From Curtobacterium sp. MCBD17_013 (GTDB lineage Bacteria > Actinomycetota > Actinomycetes > Actinomycetales > Microbacteriaceae), in contig NZ_QKTU01000003.1 of assembly GCF_003234565.1 (NCBI RefSeq), forward strand, positions 62,001-126,000: a stretch of 64,000 bases of DNA. The letters are read 5' to 3'. Of this stretch, positions 13,446 through 48,305 are shown piece by piece. The stretch's first letter is position 1. Each line of letters begins with the position of its first letter. The notes beneath the pieces were generated by a model, which was not told where the DNA came from, ran no database searches, and saw nothing but the letters and a program-made list of their open reading frames with translations. A program made the position numbers and the translations under genes.

Positions 13446-14459
13446 ATGAGCGACGACAGCACGAGTGAGCCGCGCGGGCGGCAGTTGCGGCCCGGACAGA
13501 CGAGCCGGGTGCACGTGGTCGACGTGACGACCGGCGAGGACCGCGTCGTGTTCGTGAGCGACCGCGTGCTCGTCGAGGCGCCGAACGTGTGGATCGACCG
13601 GGCGGGGACCTCGGACGAACGGCTCGTGCTCAACGGCGACGGCGACCTCTTCACGCTCCCCGTGCCGCGGACCGGCGTGGTCCTCGACGAGAACGACCTG
13701 GTGCGGGTGCCGATGGACGGTGTCCCGGAGATCAACAACGACCACGTGCTCGATCCGTCCGGCACCTCGATCGTGGTCTCCGCCCGCGACGGCGACCTCT
13801 ACCGCGTCGCACTGCCCGAGGGCACCGCGGCCGAGCCCGCCGAGCGGATCACCGACGCCGCCGCCGCGCCGGTCCGCCGGAAGTTCTACCTGCACGGCAT
13901 CGCGCCCGACGGGTCCTCGCTCGCGGCGATCGTCGGCGAGCTGTCGGACGACGGCGTGTGGTCGACGGACGTCGCGCTCGTGGACCCGGCGACCGGCGAA
14001 CCGACGTTCGTGACGCGCGACGAGCACGCCGACGACGGCGTGGTGTTCGCCCCGGACGGGTCCGCCCTGCTCTGGAACTCCGAACGATGGGAGTCCGAGC
14101 CCGGGCACGCGCAGCTGACACGGTTGCGACTCGACGGGGTACCGGACAGCATCGCGGAGCGCCCGGCGCTGACGGAACGAGCCGAGCAACTGACGCACGA
14201 CGAGCGGGTGAACTGGTTCCCCCACCCGTCCCCGGACGGCCGGCACCTGCTGTACCTGGCGTACCCGACGGGCACCCAGGGGCACCCGGCCGACCGCGAC
14301 GTCGAACTCCGGATGCTCCCCGGCGACGCCGTGCTCGGGACCACGACCGAGGCTCCGCGGACCGTCGCGGTGACGCAGGGTGGCCAGGGAACGGTGAACG
14401 TGCCGCCGTGGGCGCCGAGCTCGACGTGGTTCGCCTACTGCGACTACCCAGTCGACTGA
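13446..14459 (+). CDS. TolB-like beta-propeller protein
   Basis: A 337-residue protein without signal peptide, made of repeated WD40-like/PD40 blades: LVLNGDGDLFTL, DPSGTSIVVSARDGDLYRV, APDGSSLAAIVG, FAPDGSALLWNS and HPSPDGRHLLYLAYP. It resembles the TolB-like proteins that occur beside sugar catabolic genes; no enzymatic function is established. The ATG at 13446 has AGGAGAGG nine bases upstream, and longer starts would run through the terminator at 13287-13329. It is separated from the transport operon by that terminator, so it may be independently expressed. Confidence 0.75.
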   Translation: MSDDSTSEPRGRQLRPGQTSRVHVVDVTTGEDRVVFVSDRVLVEAPNVWIDRAGTSDERLVLNGDGDLFTLPVPRTGVVLDENDLVRVPMDGVPEINNDHVLDPSGTSIVVSARDGDLYRVALPEGTAAEPAERITDAAAAPVRRKFYLHGIAPDGSSLAAIVGELSDDGVWSTDVALVDPATGEPTFVTRDEHADDGVVFAPDGSALLWNSERWESEPGHAQLTRLRLDGVPDSIAERPALTERAEQLTHDERVNWFPHPSPDGRHLLYLAYPTGTQGHPADRDVELRMLPGDAVLGTTTEAPRTVAVTQGGQGTVNVPPWAPSSTWFAYCDYPVD

Positions 14460-42434: not shown

Positions 42435-43034
42435 ATGTACGACGGCATCGTCCAGGACATCATCGACGAGTTCGGCCGTCTGCCGGGGATCGGTCCGAAG
42501 TCCGCGCAGCGGATCGCGTTCCACATCCTGCAGACCGAGTCGTTCGACCCGACGCGCCTCGCGGAACTCCTCATGACGGTCAAGGAGAAGGTCCGCTTCT
42601 GCGAGGTCTGCGGGAACGTGACCGAGACCGAACGCTGCAGCATCTGCCGCGATCCCCGCCGCTCGCCCGCGGTCATCTGCGTGGTCGAGGAGGCCAAGGA
42701 CGTCGCCGCGATCGAGCGGACCCGTGAGTTCCGCGGGCTGTACCACGTGCTCGGCGGCGCGATCAGCCCGATCGACGGCGTCGGCCCCGACGACCTCCGC
42801 ATCCAGAGTCTGCTGACGCGGCTCGCGGACGGCACCGTGGACGAGGTCATCATCGCGACCGATCCGAACCTCGAGGGCGAGGCCACGGCCACCTACCTCA
42901 GCCGGCTCCTCGTGCCGATGGGGGTCCGGACGACGCGCCTCGCTTCCGGACTCCCGGTCGGTGGGGATCTCGAGTACGCCGACGAGGTCACGCTCGGACG
43001 CGCTTTCGAGGGGCGCCGGCTCGTGGGCGGTTGA
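42435..43034 (+). CDS. recR: recombination mediator protein RecR
   Basis: RecR works with RecF and RecO to load RecA onto gapped DNA. The 199-residue protein has the helix-hairpin-helix [15 protein letters not shown], the four-cysteine zinc motif [16 protein letters not shown] and a Toprim domain ([34 protein letters not shown]). It starts two bases after the dnaX stop. The ybaB gene that usually stands between dnaX and recR is absent. Confidence 0.96.
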
Positions 43035-45563: not shown

Positions 45564-47048
45564 GTGCCAGAGAAGCCAGTGCAGCCGTTGGACGTCGTCC
45601 TGATCGGCGGTGGCATCATGAGCGCGACGCTGGGCGCGCTCATCCACCGTCTCGAGCCGGACTGGTCCATCCGGATCTACGAGCGCCTCGCCGACGTCGC
45701 CGAGGAGTCCTCCAACCCCTGGAACAACGCGGGAACCGGGCACTCGGCACTCTGTGAGCTGAACTACACGCCGGAGCTGCCCGACGGTTCCGTGGACATC
45801 AGCAAGGCCATCGGCGTCAACGAGCAGTTCCAGGTCTCGCGGCAGTTCTGGGCGCACCTCGTCGAGACCGGCGCGCTCGCCGCTCCCGAGACCTTCATCA
45901 ACCCGACGCCGCACATCAGCTTCGTCTGGGGCGAGGACAACGTGTCCTACATGCGCACACGGTACGAGGCGATGAAGGACCACCCGCTCTTCGCCGGCCT
46001 CGAGTACAGCGACGACGTACGCCAGATCCGCCGGTGGGCGCCCGCGCTCATCCCCGGCCGGAAGCGGTCGCAGCCCATCGCGGCGACGTACTCGCCCGCC
46101 GGGTCCGACGTCGACTTCGGTTCCTTGACGCGTCAGCTCGTCGACGGGCTGCGCCGGGACGGCGTCCAGTTCGAGTCAAACCACGTCGTGAAGAACGTGT
46201 CGCGCCGGAAGGACGGCACCTGGGAGCTCCTCGTCAAGAACGAGGTGGGGCAGTCGAGGTCCCGCATCGCAGCGAAGTTCGTCTTCGTGGGTGCCGGCGG
46301 TGGCGCGCTCCAGCTCCTCCAGCGCTCCGGCATCCCGGAGATCCGCGGCTACGGCGGGTTCCCCGTGAGCGGTGAGTTCCTCCGCTCCGACGACCCGGCG
46401 GTCGTGGTCAAGCACGCCGCCAAGGTCTACGGCAAGGCGTCGGTCGGTGCGCCGCCCATGTCGGTGCCGCACCTGGACACCCGGATCGTCGACGGTCAGG
46501 CGAGTCTGATGTTCGGGCCGTACGCCGGGTTCAGCCCGAAGTTCCTCAAGCAGGGCTCGTGGTCGGATCTCTTCCGGTCGATCCGGCTCCACAACCTGCG
46601 GCCGATGCTGTCGGTCGCGTTCTCGAACATGGACCTGGTCCGCTACCTGGTCGGGCAGCTGCTCGCGAGCCGGTCCCGCAAGTTCGCCGCGCTCCGGGAC
46701 TTCATGCCGTCCGCACAGCCGGGGGACTGGCACCGGATCACGGCGGGACAGCGCGTCCAGGTCATCAAGCCCGACCGCGAGCGAGGCGGTGTCCTGCAGT
46801 TCGGCACCGAGGTCATCACCTCGGCGGACGGCAGCATCGCCGGGCTGCTCGGCGCCTCGCCCGGGGCGTCGACCGCGGTGCCGATCATGCTCGGGCTGCT
46901 CGAGCGCTGCTTCCCCGACCGCCGGGACCGCTGGGCGGATGCCATCCGGGGGATGGTGCCGACGTACGGCAAGCGGTTGTCGGACGACCCGGCGCTCGCT
47001 GACGAGACGCTCACCCGGACCGCGGCGACGTTGCACCTCCACCGCTGA
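45564..47048 (+). CDS. mqo: malate:quinone oxidoreductase
   Basis: A peripheral membrane FAD enzyme that oxidises malate to oxaloacetate and passes electrons to menaquinone. The 494-residue protein opens with DVVLIGGGIMSATLGALI, the FAD dinucleotide-binding motif. NPWNNAGTGHSALCELNYTP and the C-terminal GASPGASTAVPIML match the family. TAGGAT (45552-45557) ends six bases before the GTG, so translation is probably leaderless. Confidence 0.95.
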   Translation: MPEKPVQPLDVVLIGGGIMSATLGALIHRLEPDWSIRIYERLADVAEESSNPWNNAGTGHSALCELNYTPELPDGSVDISKAIGVNEQFQVSRQFWAHLVETGALAAPETFINPTPHISFVWGEDNVSYMRTRYEAMKDHPLFAGLEYSDDVRQIRRWAPALIPGRKRSQPIAATYSPAGSDVDFGSLTRQLVDGLRRDGVQFESNHVVKNVSRRKDGTWELLVKNEVGQSRSRIAAKFVFVGAGGGALQLLQRSGIPEIRGYGGFPVSGEFLRSDDPAVVVKHAAKVYGKASVGAPPMSVPHLDTRIVDGQASLMFGPYAGFSPKFLKQGSWSDLFRSIRLHNLRPMLSVAFSNMDLVRYLVGQLLASRSRKFAALRDFMPSAQPGDWHRITAGQRVQVIKPDRERGGVLQFGTEVITSADGSIAGLLGASPGASTAVPIMLGLLERCFPDRRDRWADAIRGMVPTYGKRLSDDPALADETLTRTAATLHLHR

Positions 47049-47058
47049 CCGCCGCCGC

Positions 47059-47087
47059 TTGACCTCCGTTCGAACACGTGTTCGAAT
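47059..47087 (+). promoter_or_regulatory. LexA-type SOS box overlapping a promoter
   Basis: TTGACC (47059-47064), 17 bases and TCGAAT (47082-47087) form a promoter. The perfect palindrome TTCGAACACGTGTTCGAA (47069-47086) fills the spacer and most of the -10 box and contains CGAAC-N4-GTTCG, the actinobacterial LexA operator. The next gene starts six bases after the -10 box. Confidence 0.85.
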
Positions 47088-47093
47088 GGGGGC

Positions 47094-48305
47094 ATGCGGT
47101 GGGACGGCCAGACGATCGATGCCTCGGACGACGCGATGCTCCCCGGGCTCGCGTCGAACCGCGGGTTCGTCCGGAGCGTGACGACGCCGGAGTTCGCCGG
47201 GGTCACGTTCCACGAGGTCCTGGCCAAGTCGGCGCTCAACCGGGTCGGCGGCCACGACGGCGGCGTGTGGGGGTGGACGATCAACCCCTACCGGGGCTGC
47301 AGTCATGCCTGCGTGTACTGCTTCGCCCGCCCCACCCACGCCTACCTCGAGTTCGACGCCGGAGCGGACTTCGACCGGCAGATCGTGGTCAAGACGAACG
47401 TGTCCGAGGTCCTCACGCGTGAGCTGGCGCGACCCTCGTGGGATCGTCATCCCGTCGCGCTGGGCACGAACACGGACCCGTACCAGCGTGCCGAGGGGCG
47501 GTACCGGCTCATGCCCGGGATCATCCGCGCGCTCGCCGACTCGGGCACGCCGTTCAGCATCTTGACGAAGGGCACCTTGCTCCGTCGCGACATCCCGATC
47601 CTCGTCGAGGCCGCGGAGCGCGTCCCGGTGGACCTCGCCATGTCCATCGCCGTGTACGACGACGACCTCCAGCAGTCGGTGGAACCAGGGACGCCCTCGA
47701 CGGCCGCGCGCTTGGCGACCGTGCGCGCGGTGCGCGACGCCGGACTCGACTGTTCCGTGTTCCTCATGCCGATCCTCCCGTACGTCACGGACACCAAGGC
47801 GCACCTGACGGATGCGGTGGGCCGTGCGGCGGCGGCCGGGGCGACGAGCGTGGTGTTCTCGGCCCTGCACCTCAAGCCGGGCGTCAAGCCGTGGTTCATG
47901 GACTGGCTCGGACGACGCCACCCGGACCTCGTCGAGCGCTACCGGCGGATGTACCTCAATGCCGCGTACGCACCGCGGGACTACCGACGGTGGCTCTCGG
48001 AGCGGATGCGGCCGATCCTCGCCGACCACGGCCTGCCCATGGGGCGAGTGGACCCGGCGACGGGCTCCATGGGATTCCACGACGGTTCGCCACTCAAACG
48101 GGCCGCGGCGTCCTTCGGTGACGAGGTCGGCGAGGCACAAGGCGCTACGGCTGCTGCGGCGACCCCGGTGGCCCCGGCAGCAGCTGCCCGGATCCTCCCG
48201 GCAGTTGGGGCCCCGGCGGTGCCGACCGCCGTGTCCCCGACCGCGGCAGGCCGCGCCCGAGGGGACCTCGACGTCGCCGCAGGGTCGGCCGTCACCCTGT
48301 TCTGA
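47094..48305 (+). CDS. Rv2578c-family radical SAM protein, likely SOS-controlled
   Basis: A 403-residue radical SAM enzyme related to spore photoproduct lyase-like proteins. The iron-sulfur motif is CSHACVYC in NPYRGCSHACVYCFARPTHAYLEFD. ILTKGTLLRRDIPIL and VFLMPILPYVTD are family segments. The C-terminal 60 residues are low-complexity Ala/Pro. The ATG at 47094 is only six bases from the -10 box, so the transcript is leaderless. The LexA palindrome in its promoter links it to DNA damage; the reaction is unknown. Confidence 0.88.
   Translation: MRWDGQTIDASDDAMLPGLASNRGFVRSVTTPEFAGVTFHEVLAKSALNRVGGHDGGVWGWTINPYRGCSHACVYCFARPTHAYLEFDAGADFDRQIVVKTNVSEVLTRELARPSWDRHPVALGTNTDPYQRAEGRYRLMPGIIRALADSGTPFSILTKGTLLRRDIPILVEAAERVPVDLAMSIAVYDDDLQQSVEPGTPSTAARLATVRAVRDAGLDCSVFLMPILPYVTDTKAHLTDAVGRAAAAGATSVVFSALHLKPGVKPWFMDWLGRRHPDLVERYRRMYLNAAYAPRDYRRWLSERMRPILADHGLPMGRVDPATGSMGFHDGSPLKRAAASFGDEVGEAQGATAAAATPVAPAAAARILPAVGAPAVPTAVSPTAAGRARGDLDVAAGSAVTLF

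Follow-up and report, generated by a model that had tools for sequence, protein, structure and literature searches.

Does the radical SAM gene that follows the malate:quinone oxidoreductase gene (mqo) of Curtobacterium sp. MCBD17_013 belong to the SOS regulon and, if so, is its product a DNA repair enzyme? The question arises from the 45 bases that separate the end of mqo from the ATG of the radical SAM gene (47094), a gap that contains the whole predicted promoter of the latter and, within it, a palindrome of the LexA-operator type. The window (the whole stretch of DNA analyzed, 64,000 nucleotides long) comes from a genome of 3.39 Mb, and the features of the locus are listed in Table 1. The recR gene (window positions 42435-43034) lies about 4 kb upstream of the radical SAM gene on the same strand, in the order recR, aspartate kinase gene, asd, mqo, radical SAM gene.

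Table 1. Features of the radical SAM locus in the window
Feature	Position	Strand	Remarks
Malate:quinone oxidoreductase gene (mqo)	45564-47048		Upstream neighbour of the radical SAM gene
-35 element TTGACC	47059..47064	+	Read from the sequence; similar motif in relatives
LexA-type operator (SOS box), perfect 18-base palindrome TTCGAACACGTGTTCGAA	47069..47086	+	Conserved in orthologues
Predicted -10 element TCGAAT	47082..47087	+	Overlaps the right half of the operator; last T beyond the palindrome and nearly invariant
ATG start codon, also the predicted (leaderless) transcript start	47094..47096	+	Transcript start putative
Rv2578c-family radical SAM protein, 403 aa	47094..48305	+	NF038135, Pfam Radical_SAM, AlphaFold2 model

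The promoter architecture proposed in an earlier note on this DNA, i.e., an 18-base perfect palindrome between TTGACC and TCGAAT with a 17-base spacer and an ATG six bases further on, is correct to the base. In the predicted -10 element, a C stands where A is usual. ATG 47094 was retained as the start codon because all 42 proteins of the alignment, i.e., that of the window and those of 41 of 80 relatives, begin with MRW. With translation starting there, the predicted -10 would set the start of transcription on the A of the ATG; TCGAAT was read as a -10 element because its outer T sits at -7 if transcription starts on this A. The radical SAM mRNA would thus be leaderless, with its 5′ end at the ATG. 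The note had called the gene leaderless: the geometry of promoter and start codon indeed looks leaderless, the transcript start itself being a prediction.

When up to three mismatches are allowed, TTCGAACACGTGTTCGAA occurs once in the window versus 0.01 times expected from shuffled sequences, and its 14-base core, CGAAC-N4-GTTCG, occurs twice versus 0.15 expected. The second copy of the core (13997-14010), which has a GC-rich centre and lies inside a long open frame, was rejected as an SOS site and taken as a chance occurrence; long open frames are common in this GC-rich window and one also spans the operator (47069-47086). At the scale of the genome, which carries lexA, the extended pattern TCGAACRYRTGTTYGA has exact matches at four places only: (i) the radical SAM gene, (ii) two at the imuA' locus and (iii) one before a 108-aa ORF. 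The imuA' locus codes for ImuA' (NF058630, 175.9 bits) and for a Y-family polymerase-like protein (PF00817, 39.5 bits), and one of its two boxes is located 11 bases ahead of ImuA'. The boxes found upstream of lexA show one and two mismatches to the extended pattern. With at most two mismatches, TCGAACRYRTGTTYGA gives 46 and 45 matches on the two strands versus two and three for the reversed control. Among the 29 exact matches of the genome to CGAAC-N4-GTTCG, five (radical SAM gene, imuA' locus, 108-aa ORF, lexA) were kept as SOS sites and the other 24 were dropped, the extended pattern separating the two sets. Open frames do not separate them: 20 of the 24 dropped matches lie in long frames, and so do three of the five kept.

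The 108-aa ORF (contig C4:4040-4055, locus L230:1209-1556, - strand) carries its exact SOS box 9 bases before the ATG, between a TTGACG and a TCGAAT of its own. Its product did not match any NCBIfam or Pfam model and is a candidate for an uncharacterized SOS protein.

The scan of orthologous promoters for the SOS box, which the earlier note had suggested as a check, was strongly positive. Boxes with at most one mismatch to CGAAC-N4-GTTCG were searched for within 100 bases upstream of the start codon, and windows located farther upstream in the same loci served as controls. Two sets of loci were used: (i) close relatives, i.e., the best 80 of 534, reduced to 79 by the removal of L027 (too little upstream DNA), and (ii) 296 sampled genomes of the class, among which 119 carry the Rv2578c family over the cut-off, indicating that the family is not universal. 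In the latter, 117 of the 119 loci were examined (the genome of the window itself and one split match were left out), and the removal of L224, also for too little upstream DNA, left 116; a few class loci in which the model match starts within the gene were retained and counted as misses. The box was found in 67 of the 79 close relatives versus 12 of 2119 control windows, and in 84 of the 116 class orthologues versus 12 of 1492 (Fisher p 3e-102 and 3e-99, respectively, with related genomes treated as independent). Outside Microbacterium, it precedes 61 of 63 close relatives (8/1702 controls) and is exact in 43 of these 63 versus none of the 1702 controls; an exact box is seen, among others, in Curtobacterium, Leifsonia, Agromyces, Frigoribacterium, Demequina and Brevibacterium. 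Most boxes stand 8-12 bases ahead of the start codon. The distance from the end of the core is 9 bases for 60 of the 67 boxed close relatives and falls within 6-12 bases for 78 of the 84 boxed class orthologues. Each of the 17 family labels in the class sample shows at least one box, with 16 of the 17 having one within 6-12 bases of the start. At one mismatch or fewer, the frequency per label ranges from 8/8 (f24), 5/5 (f15), 20/21 (f10) and 18/20 (f26) to 4/25 (f25); we think that f10 is Mycobacteriaceae-like, f25 Streptomyces-like and f26 Micromonospora-like. The CGAAC-N4-GTTCG operator reported in the note is therefore conserved across the class, besides being one of the four exact extended matches of its genome and of the same class as the sites at imuA'.

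Could this conservation come from the promoter, the -10 and -35 elements being constrained and the palindrome being fortuitous, with no operator at all? The conserved parts are the -35 element, both half sites and the T located three bases past the core. The -35 element (TTGAC or TTGC) is kept in close relatives, f10 and f26 and is weak in f15/f24/f35/f37. Using bit values that are inflated since the aligned rows were chosen by their match to the box, the T outside the palindrome reaches 2.0 bits in 63 close relatives and 1.7-2.0 bits in the five other groups shown, and the right half exceeds the left one in close relatives outside Microbacterium (13.2 vs. 10.9 bits) and in four of the five other groups, the reverse being observed in f15/f24/f35/f37. 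A right half that overlaps the predicted -10 and is, in most groups, the better conserved one would fit a promoter without operator. However, the left half lies in the spacer, a location that the promoter does not constrain, and is nevertheless conserved outside Microbacterium; it therefore speaks for an operator. Given also the excess of boxed class orthologues over controls, conservation driven by the promoter alone is extremely improbable.

The operator reading has to account for two groups with weak or altered boxes. Microbacterium has a box with at most one mismatch in only 6 of 16 loci, the left half being often lost while the -35 element and the right half are kept. In seven Microbacterium-like genomes, the best imuA' box (loci L288, L292, L294-L296, L298 and L299) has at least two mismatches in six and is exact in one, and the best lexA box (loci L238-L240 and L242-L245) has one mismatch in one, two in six and is exact in none. 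The SOS boxes of these genomes are mostly unlike CGAAC-N4-GTTCG, as exemplified by TAGAACATCTGTTCTAG. Since the imuA' and lexA boxes have drifted there too, operator drift is likely in Microbacterium, and a change of LexA specificity is the explanation that we favour. In the Streptomyces-like family f25, the outer bases differ, giving the site GGGAAC-N4-GTTCTATT. Only one of its four boxes with at most one mismatch is near the start codon; at two mismatches or fewer, the box is found in 23 of 25 loci versus 35 of 325 control windows. This site is followed by a leader whose sequence resembles a ribosome-binding site. On a Tsukamurella plasmid (L263, upstream of position 1501), an Rv2578c-family gene is preceded by a box with a centre of five bases instead of four.

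The binder could also be a regulator other than LexA that recognizes a similar TTCGAAC-N4-GTTCGAA site. The assignment to LexA is deduced from the sites, and the many Microbacterium that keep the promoter and the right half without a clear palindrome would fit such a regulator. On the other side, the same class of site precedes imuA' and, with one or two mismatches, lexA in the Curtobacterium genome, and the site equals the mycobacterial SOS box, given as TCGAAC-N4-GTTCGA in PMC4181829. Moreover, the sister family described below bears other LexA operators, namely those of Alphaproteobacteria and of Aeromonas. Another regulator is thus very unlikely.

The radical SAM protein is a member of the Rv2578c equivalog family (NF038135, 499.4 bits for a cut-off of 430), in agreement with the identity that the note had given it, and is also matched by Pfam Radical_SAM. 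With 222.7 bits for a cut-off of 360, it is not a member of the PA0069 family (NF033668), which is its nearest sister family by score. The latter was sampled through plasmids and chromids: from 44 records with any match, 11 proteobacterial loci were taken (nine from Alphaproteobacteria, one from Aeromonas and one from Legionella), all 11 scoring above the PA0069 cut-off. Loci from Gemmatirosa, Arthrobacter and Tsukamurella were left out of this count, and the start codons of unannotated loci were picked by hand from the reading frame. In Alphaproteobacteria, the LexA operator is of the GTTC-N7-GTTC type. This motif is found upstream of the PA0069-family gene in seven of the nine alphaproteobacterial loci, ending about 10-65 bases before the start, and these seven are to be compared with a total of nine copies in the nine loci (33.6 kb). 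In Aeromonas, CTGTATATATAAACAG stands just ahead of the gene. No exact LexA operator was found before the sister gene in Legionella, one Pseudorhodobacter and M. bullatum (Methylobacterium). One of the seven boxed genes, that of Azospirillum thermophilum, has a broken frame: on its plasmid (L261, from position 1271 onward), the break lies near the cluster motif and the LexA-type operator is intact. PA0069-family genes therefore resemble the Curtobacterium gene in being preceded by LexA-type operators, and the type of operator follows the host group. Since promoters of these radical SAM genes bear three different types of LexA operator, the gene is unlikely to be a bystander. The same cross-operator argument was published in 2012 for splB of Alpha- and Betaproteobacteria (PMC3323433).

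Taken as a whole, the sequences show those features of membership in an actinobacterial SOS regulon that can be read from DNA: an operator within the promoter, its conservation before orthologues, the presence of lexA and sites at imuA' and lexA. Because the operator is conserved, the same class of site is found at imuA' and LexA operators precede the sister family, the radical SAM gene is very likely under LexA control, binding of LexA and induction by damage being the predicted consequences. In undamaged cells, a LexA dimer would sit on TTCGAACACGTGTTCGAA in the promoter spacer, cover the -10 element and block RNA polymerase. After DNA damage, RecA filaments would promote self-cleavage of LexA and the promoter would open, giving a leaderless mRNA, starting at the ATG, from which the Rv2578c-family radical SAM enzyme would be made. 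This enzyme would most likely work with a 4Fe-4S cluster and S-adenosylmethionine, its target being damaged nucleic acid or a product of the damage response. Its chemistry would be akin to that of spore photoproduct lyase without being the same; any substrate proposed at this stage would be a guess.

Comparison with spore photoproduct lyase gives a mixed picture. The CxxxCxxC cluster motif (C69, C73 and C76) is present in all 42 aligned proteins. In the solved spore photoproduct lyase, Cys140 is the hydrogen-donor cysteine. Beyond the three cluster cysteines, no fourth cysteine is shared by all 42 sequences, C220 being a cysteine in 22 of them. The spore photoproduct lyase model TIGR04070 gives no hit at E ≤ 0.001, either with the window protein or with any of the 41 relatives aligned to it; a PA0069-family protein (L252) matches it weakly (20.5 bits, cut-off 400), and the Tsukamurella Rv2578c protein reaches 20.4 bits with the related TIGR03886 (cut-off 437.55). 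The AlphaFold2 model, built from the alignment of 42 sequences, is of moderate confidence (mean pLDDT 70.3, pTM 0.70), with an Ala/Pro-rich C-terminal tail of low confidence from about residue 330. Its best solved match is a spore photoproduct lyase both with Foldseek (4k9r, E 1.5e-7) and with VIA (4fhc, Z 15.6, rmsd 4.1 over 269 residues, 13% identity). Entries of this enzyme are the six best fold matches, span residues 1-319 and lie 1.0-1.8 Z above lipoyl synthase (Z 13.8), which is followed by PFL activase (12.6) and RlmN (11.9). An alignment-based sequence search of solved structures returned nothing convincing (best E 0.067). The nearest fold thus appears to be that of spore photoproduct lyase, in a model of moderate confidence and with other radical SAM folds close behind. 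The note had related the protein to spore photoproduct lyase-like enzymes: this appears to hold at the fold level and holds for the cluster motif, whereas the low identity and the missed family model, and possibly the lack of a conserved fourth cysteine, set the Rv2578c proteins apart. Judged by family membership, the protein is not a spore photoproduct lyase; judged by its predicted regulation, it works like a damage-response enzyme.

Does it then repair DNA itself? Direct repair of a nucleic-acid lesion by the Rv2578c-family enzyme has, in our estimate, about even chances. The gene could also be SOS-regulated and encode an enzyme whose target is a tRNA, peptide, cofactor or metabolite on which the damage response depends, e.g., in the control of the nucleotide pool or of translation. 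Such a role would be in line with the folds trailing spore photoproduct lyase (lipoyl synthase, PFL activase and RlmN), which cover many functions, with the missed family model and with the conservation of the three cluster cysteines alone. It fits less well with the six top ranks of spore photoproduct lyase over residues 1-319, with their lead over lipoyl synthase, and with the content of LexA regulons, which are rich in repair genes. We regard a role outside repair as a serious possibility, if short of probable.

Other roles and forms were considered. Phage-borne copies were rejected, since viral contigs scanned with the family alignment contained 36 pattern matches and no relative; a role in defence was rejected as well (no PADLOC match). 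Among the Rv2578c-family matches over the cut-off, 26 span 1371-1992 bases (e.g., L101, L110, L115 and L119) versus about 945 usually. These long matches would fit the intein-containing form NF038136, the profile map placing the insertion just before C76.

According to the note, a repair role would be new for this family, if shown. In fact, an SOS link is already in print for genes of this kind. SplB-like (COG1533) radical SAM genes were reported as SOS-regulated in 2012 (PMC3323433) and 2021 (PMC8565304), and SplB-like proteins sit in SOS-related operons (PMC3765255). The core Gram-positive SOS regulon proposed in 2020 from a comparison of seven species (M. tuberculosis and Leifsonia xyli among them) contains a radical SAM protein (PMC7739468). 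In Streptomyces venezuelae, the radical SAM gene vnz_31145 is listed in the LexA regulon, with a 19.97-fold rise in RNA-seq with mitomycin C and a ChIP-seq change of 1.31 (PMC9380542, 2022, Table 1). A Streptomyces member was found to deviate by over 4 A from SplB of B. subtilis, and its link with repair was called speculative (PMC12924846). The same source gives the Streptomyces Rv2578c-family gene as the attachment site of phage Samy, whose integration may disrupt a likely SOS gene. The link of radical SAM genes with the SOS response is therefore largely expected.

Several of these systems can be compared with the Curtobacterium gene. The SplB-like genes of Alpha- and Betaproteobacteria, Bacteroidetes and Balneolaeota (PMC3323433, PMC8565304, PMC7739468) likewise have a LexA operator in their promoter, whose sequence differs between phyla, the link with LexA being found regardless. 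The Curtobacterium gene differs from them by its membership in the Rv2578c equivalog, its actinobacterial operator and its predicted leaderless mRNA; they may or may not belong to the PA0069 family. Like it, vnz_31145 is an actinobacterial radical SAM gene of a LexA regulon, but the site listed for it, TCGACCGTTCGCTC at -61, matches poorly and lies outside the set validated in vitro (PMC9380542). In a check of whether vnz_31145 may be an Rv2578c-family gene, this site was found before an MRW start in none of 392 Streptomyces-like genomes, a sample that may not include S. venezuelae. The radical SAM gene of the core Gram-positive regulon belongs to the same class and even, through Leifsonia, to the same family, its LexA control being predicted (PMC7739468). 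What was not met in the accessible parts of this literature is the class-wide conservation of the operator in an apparently leaderless promoter of the Rv2578c family, designated by name. Our search of open-access literature found nothing on Rv2578c together with LexA, and only unrelated work under the name PA0069. Rv2578c and PA0069 may nevertheless appear in published SOS-regulon lists, such as those of M. tuberculosis and P. aeruginosa.

Overall, the radical SAM gene is very probably a genuine SOS gene, well conserved and largely expected. All these data can be combined in a tentative reading, which we consider possible but doubtful in its entirety: Rv2578c and PA0069 would form an old, separately conserved SOS branch distinct from spore photoproduct lyase, which would repair another DNA lesion by radical SAM chemistry and without light. 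The LexA control of this branch would have persisted, or been regained, from phylum to phylum despite the changes of the operator. In Actinomycetia, the operator would be nearly always kept where the gene is present, with a leaderless mRNA and the -10 element as part of the operator.

The retention of the operator across many families of Actinomycetia, together with the different operators of the proteobacterial sister family, makes the Rv2578c family a strong candidate for a DNA-damage enzyme that has escaped attention. This conservation leads to a definite prediction, namely that the gene is induced by damage and that a lesion accumulates in a knock-out. It also bears on whether the "SplB" label carried by some of these genes is wrong. 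The assignment would come as no surprise to a specialist of the SOS response; its use is that an old annotation question can now be tested.
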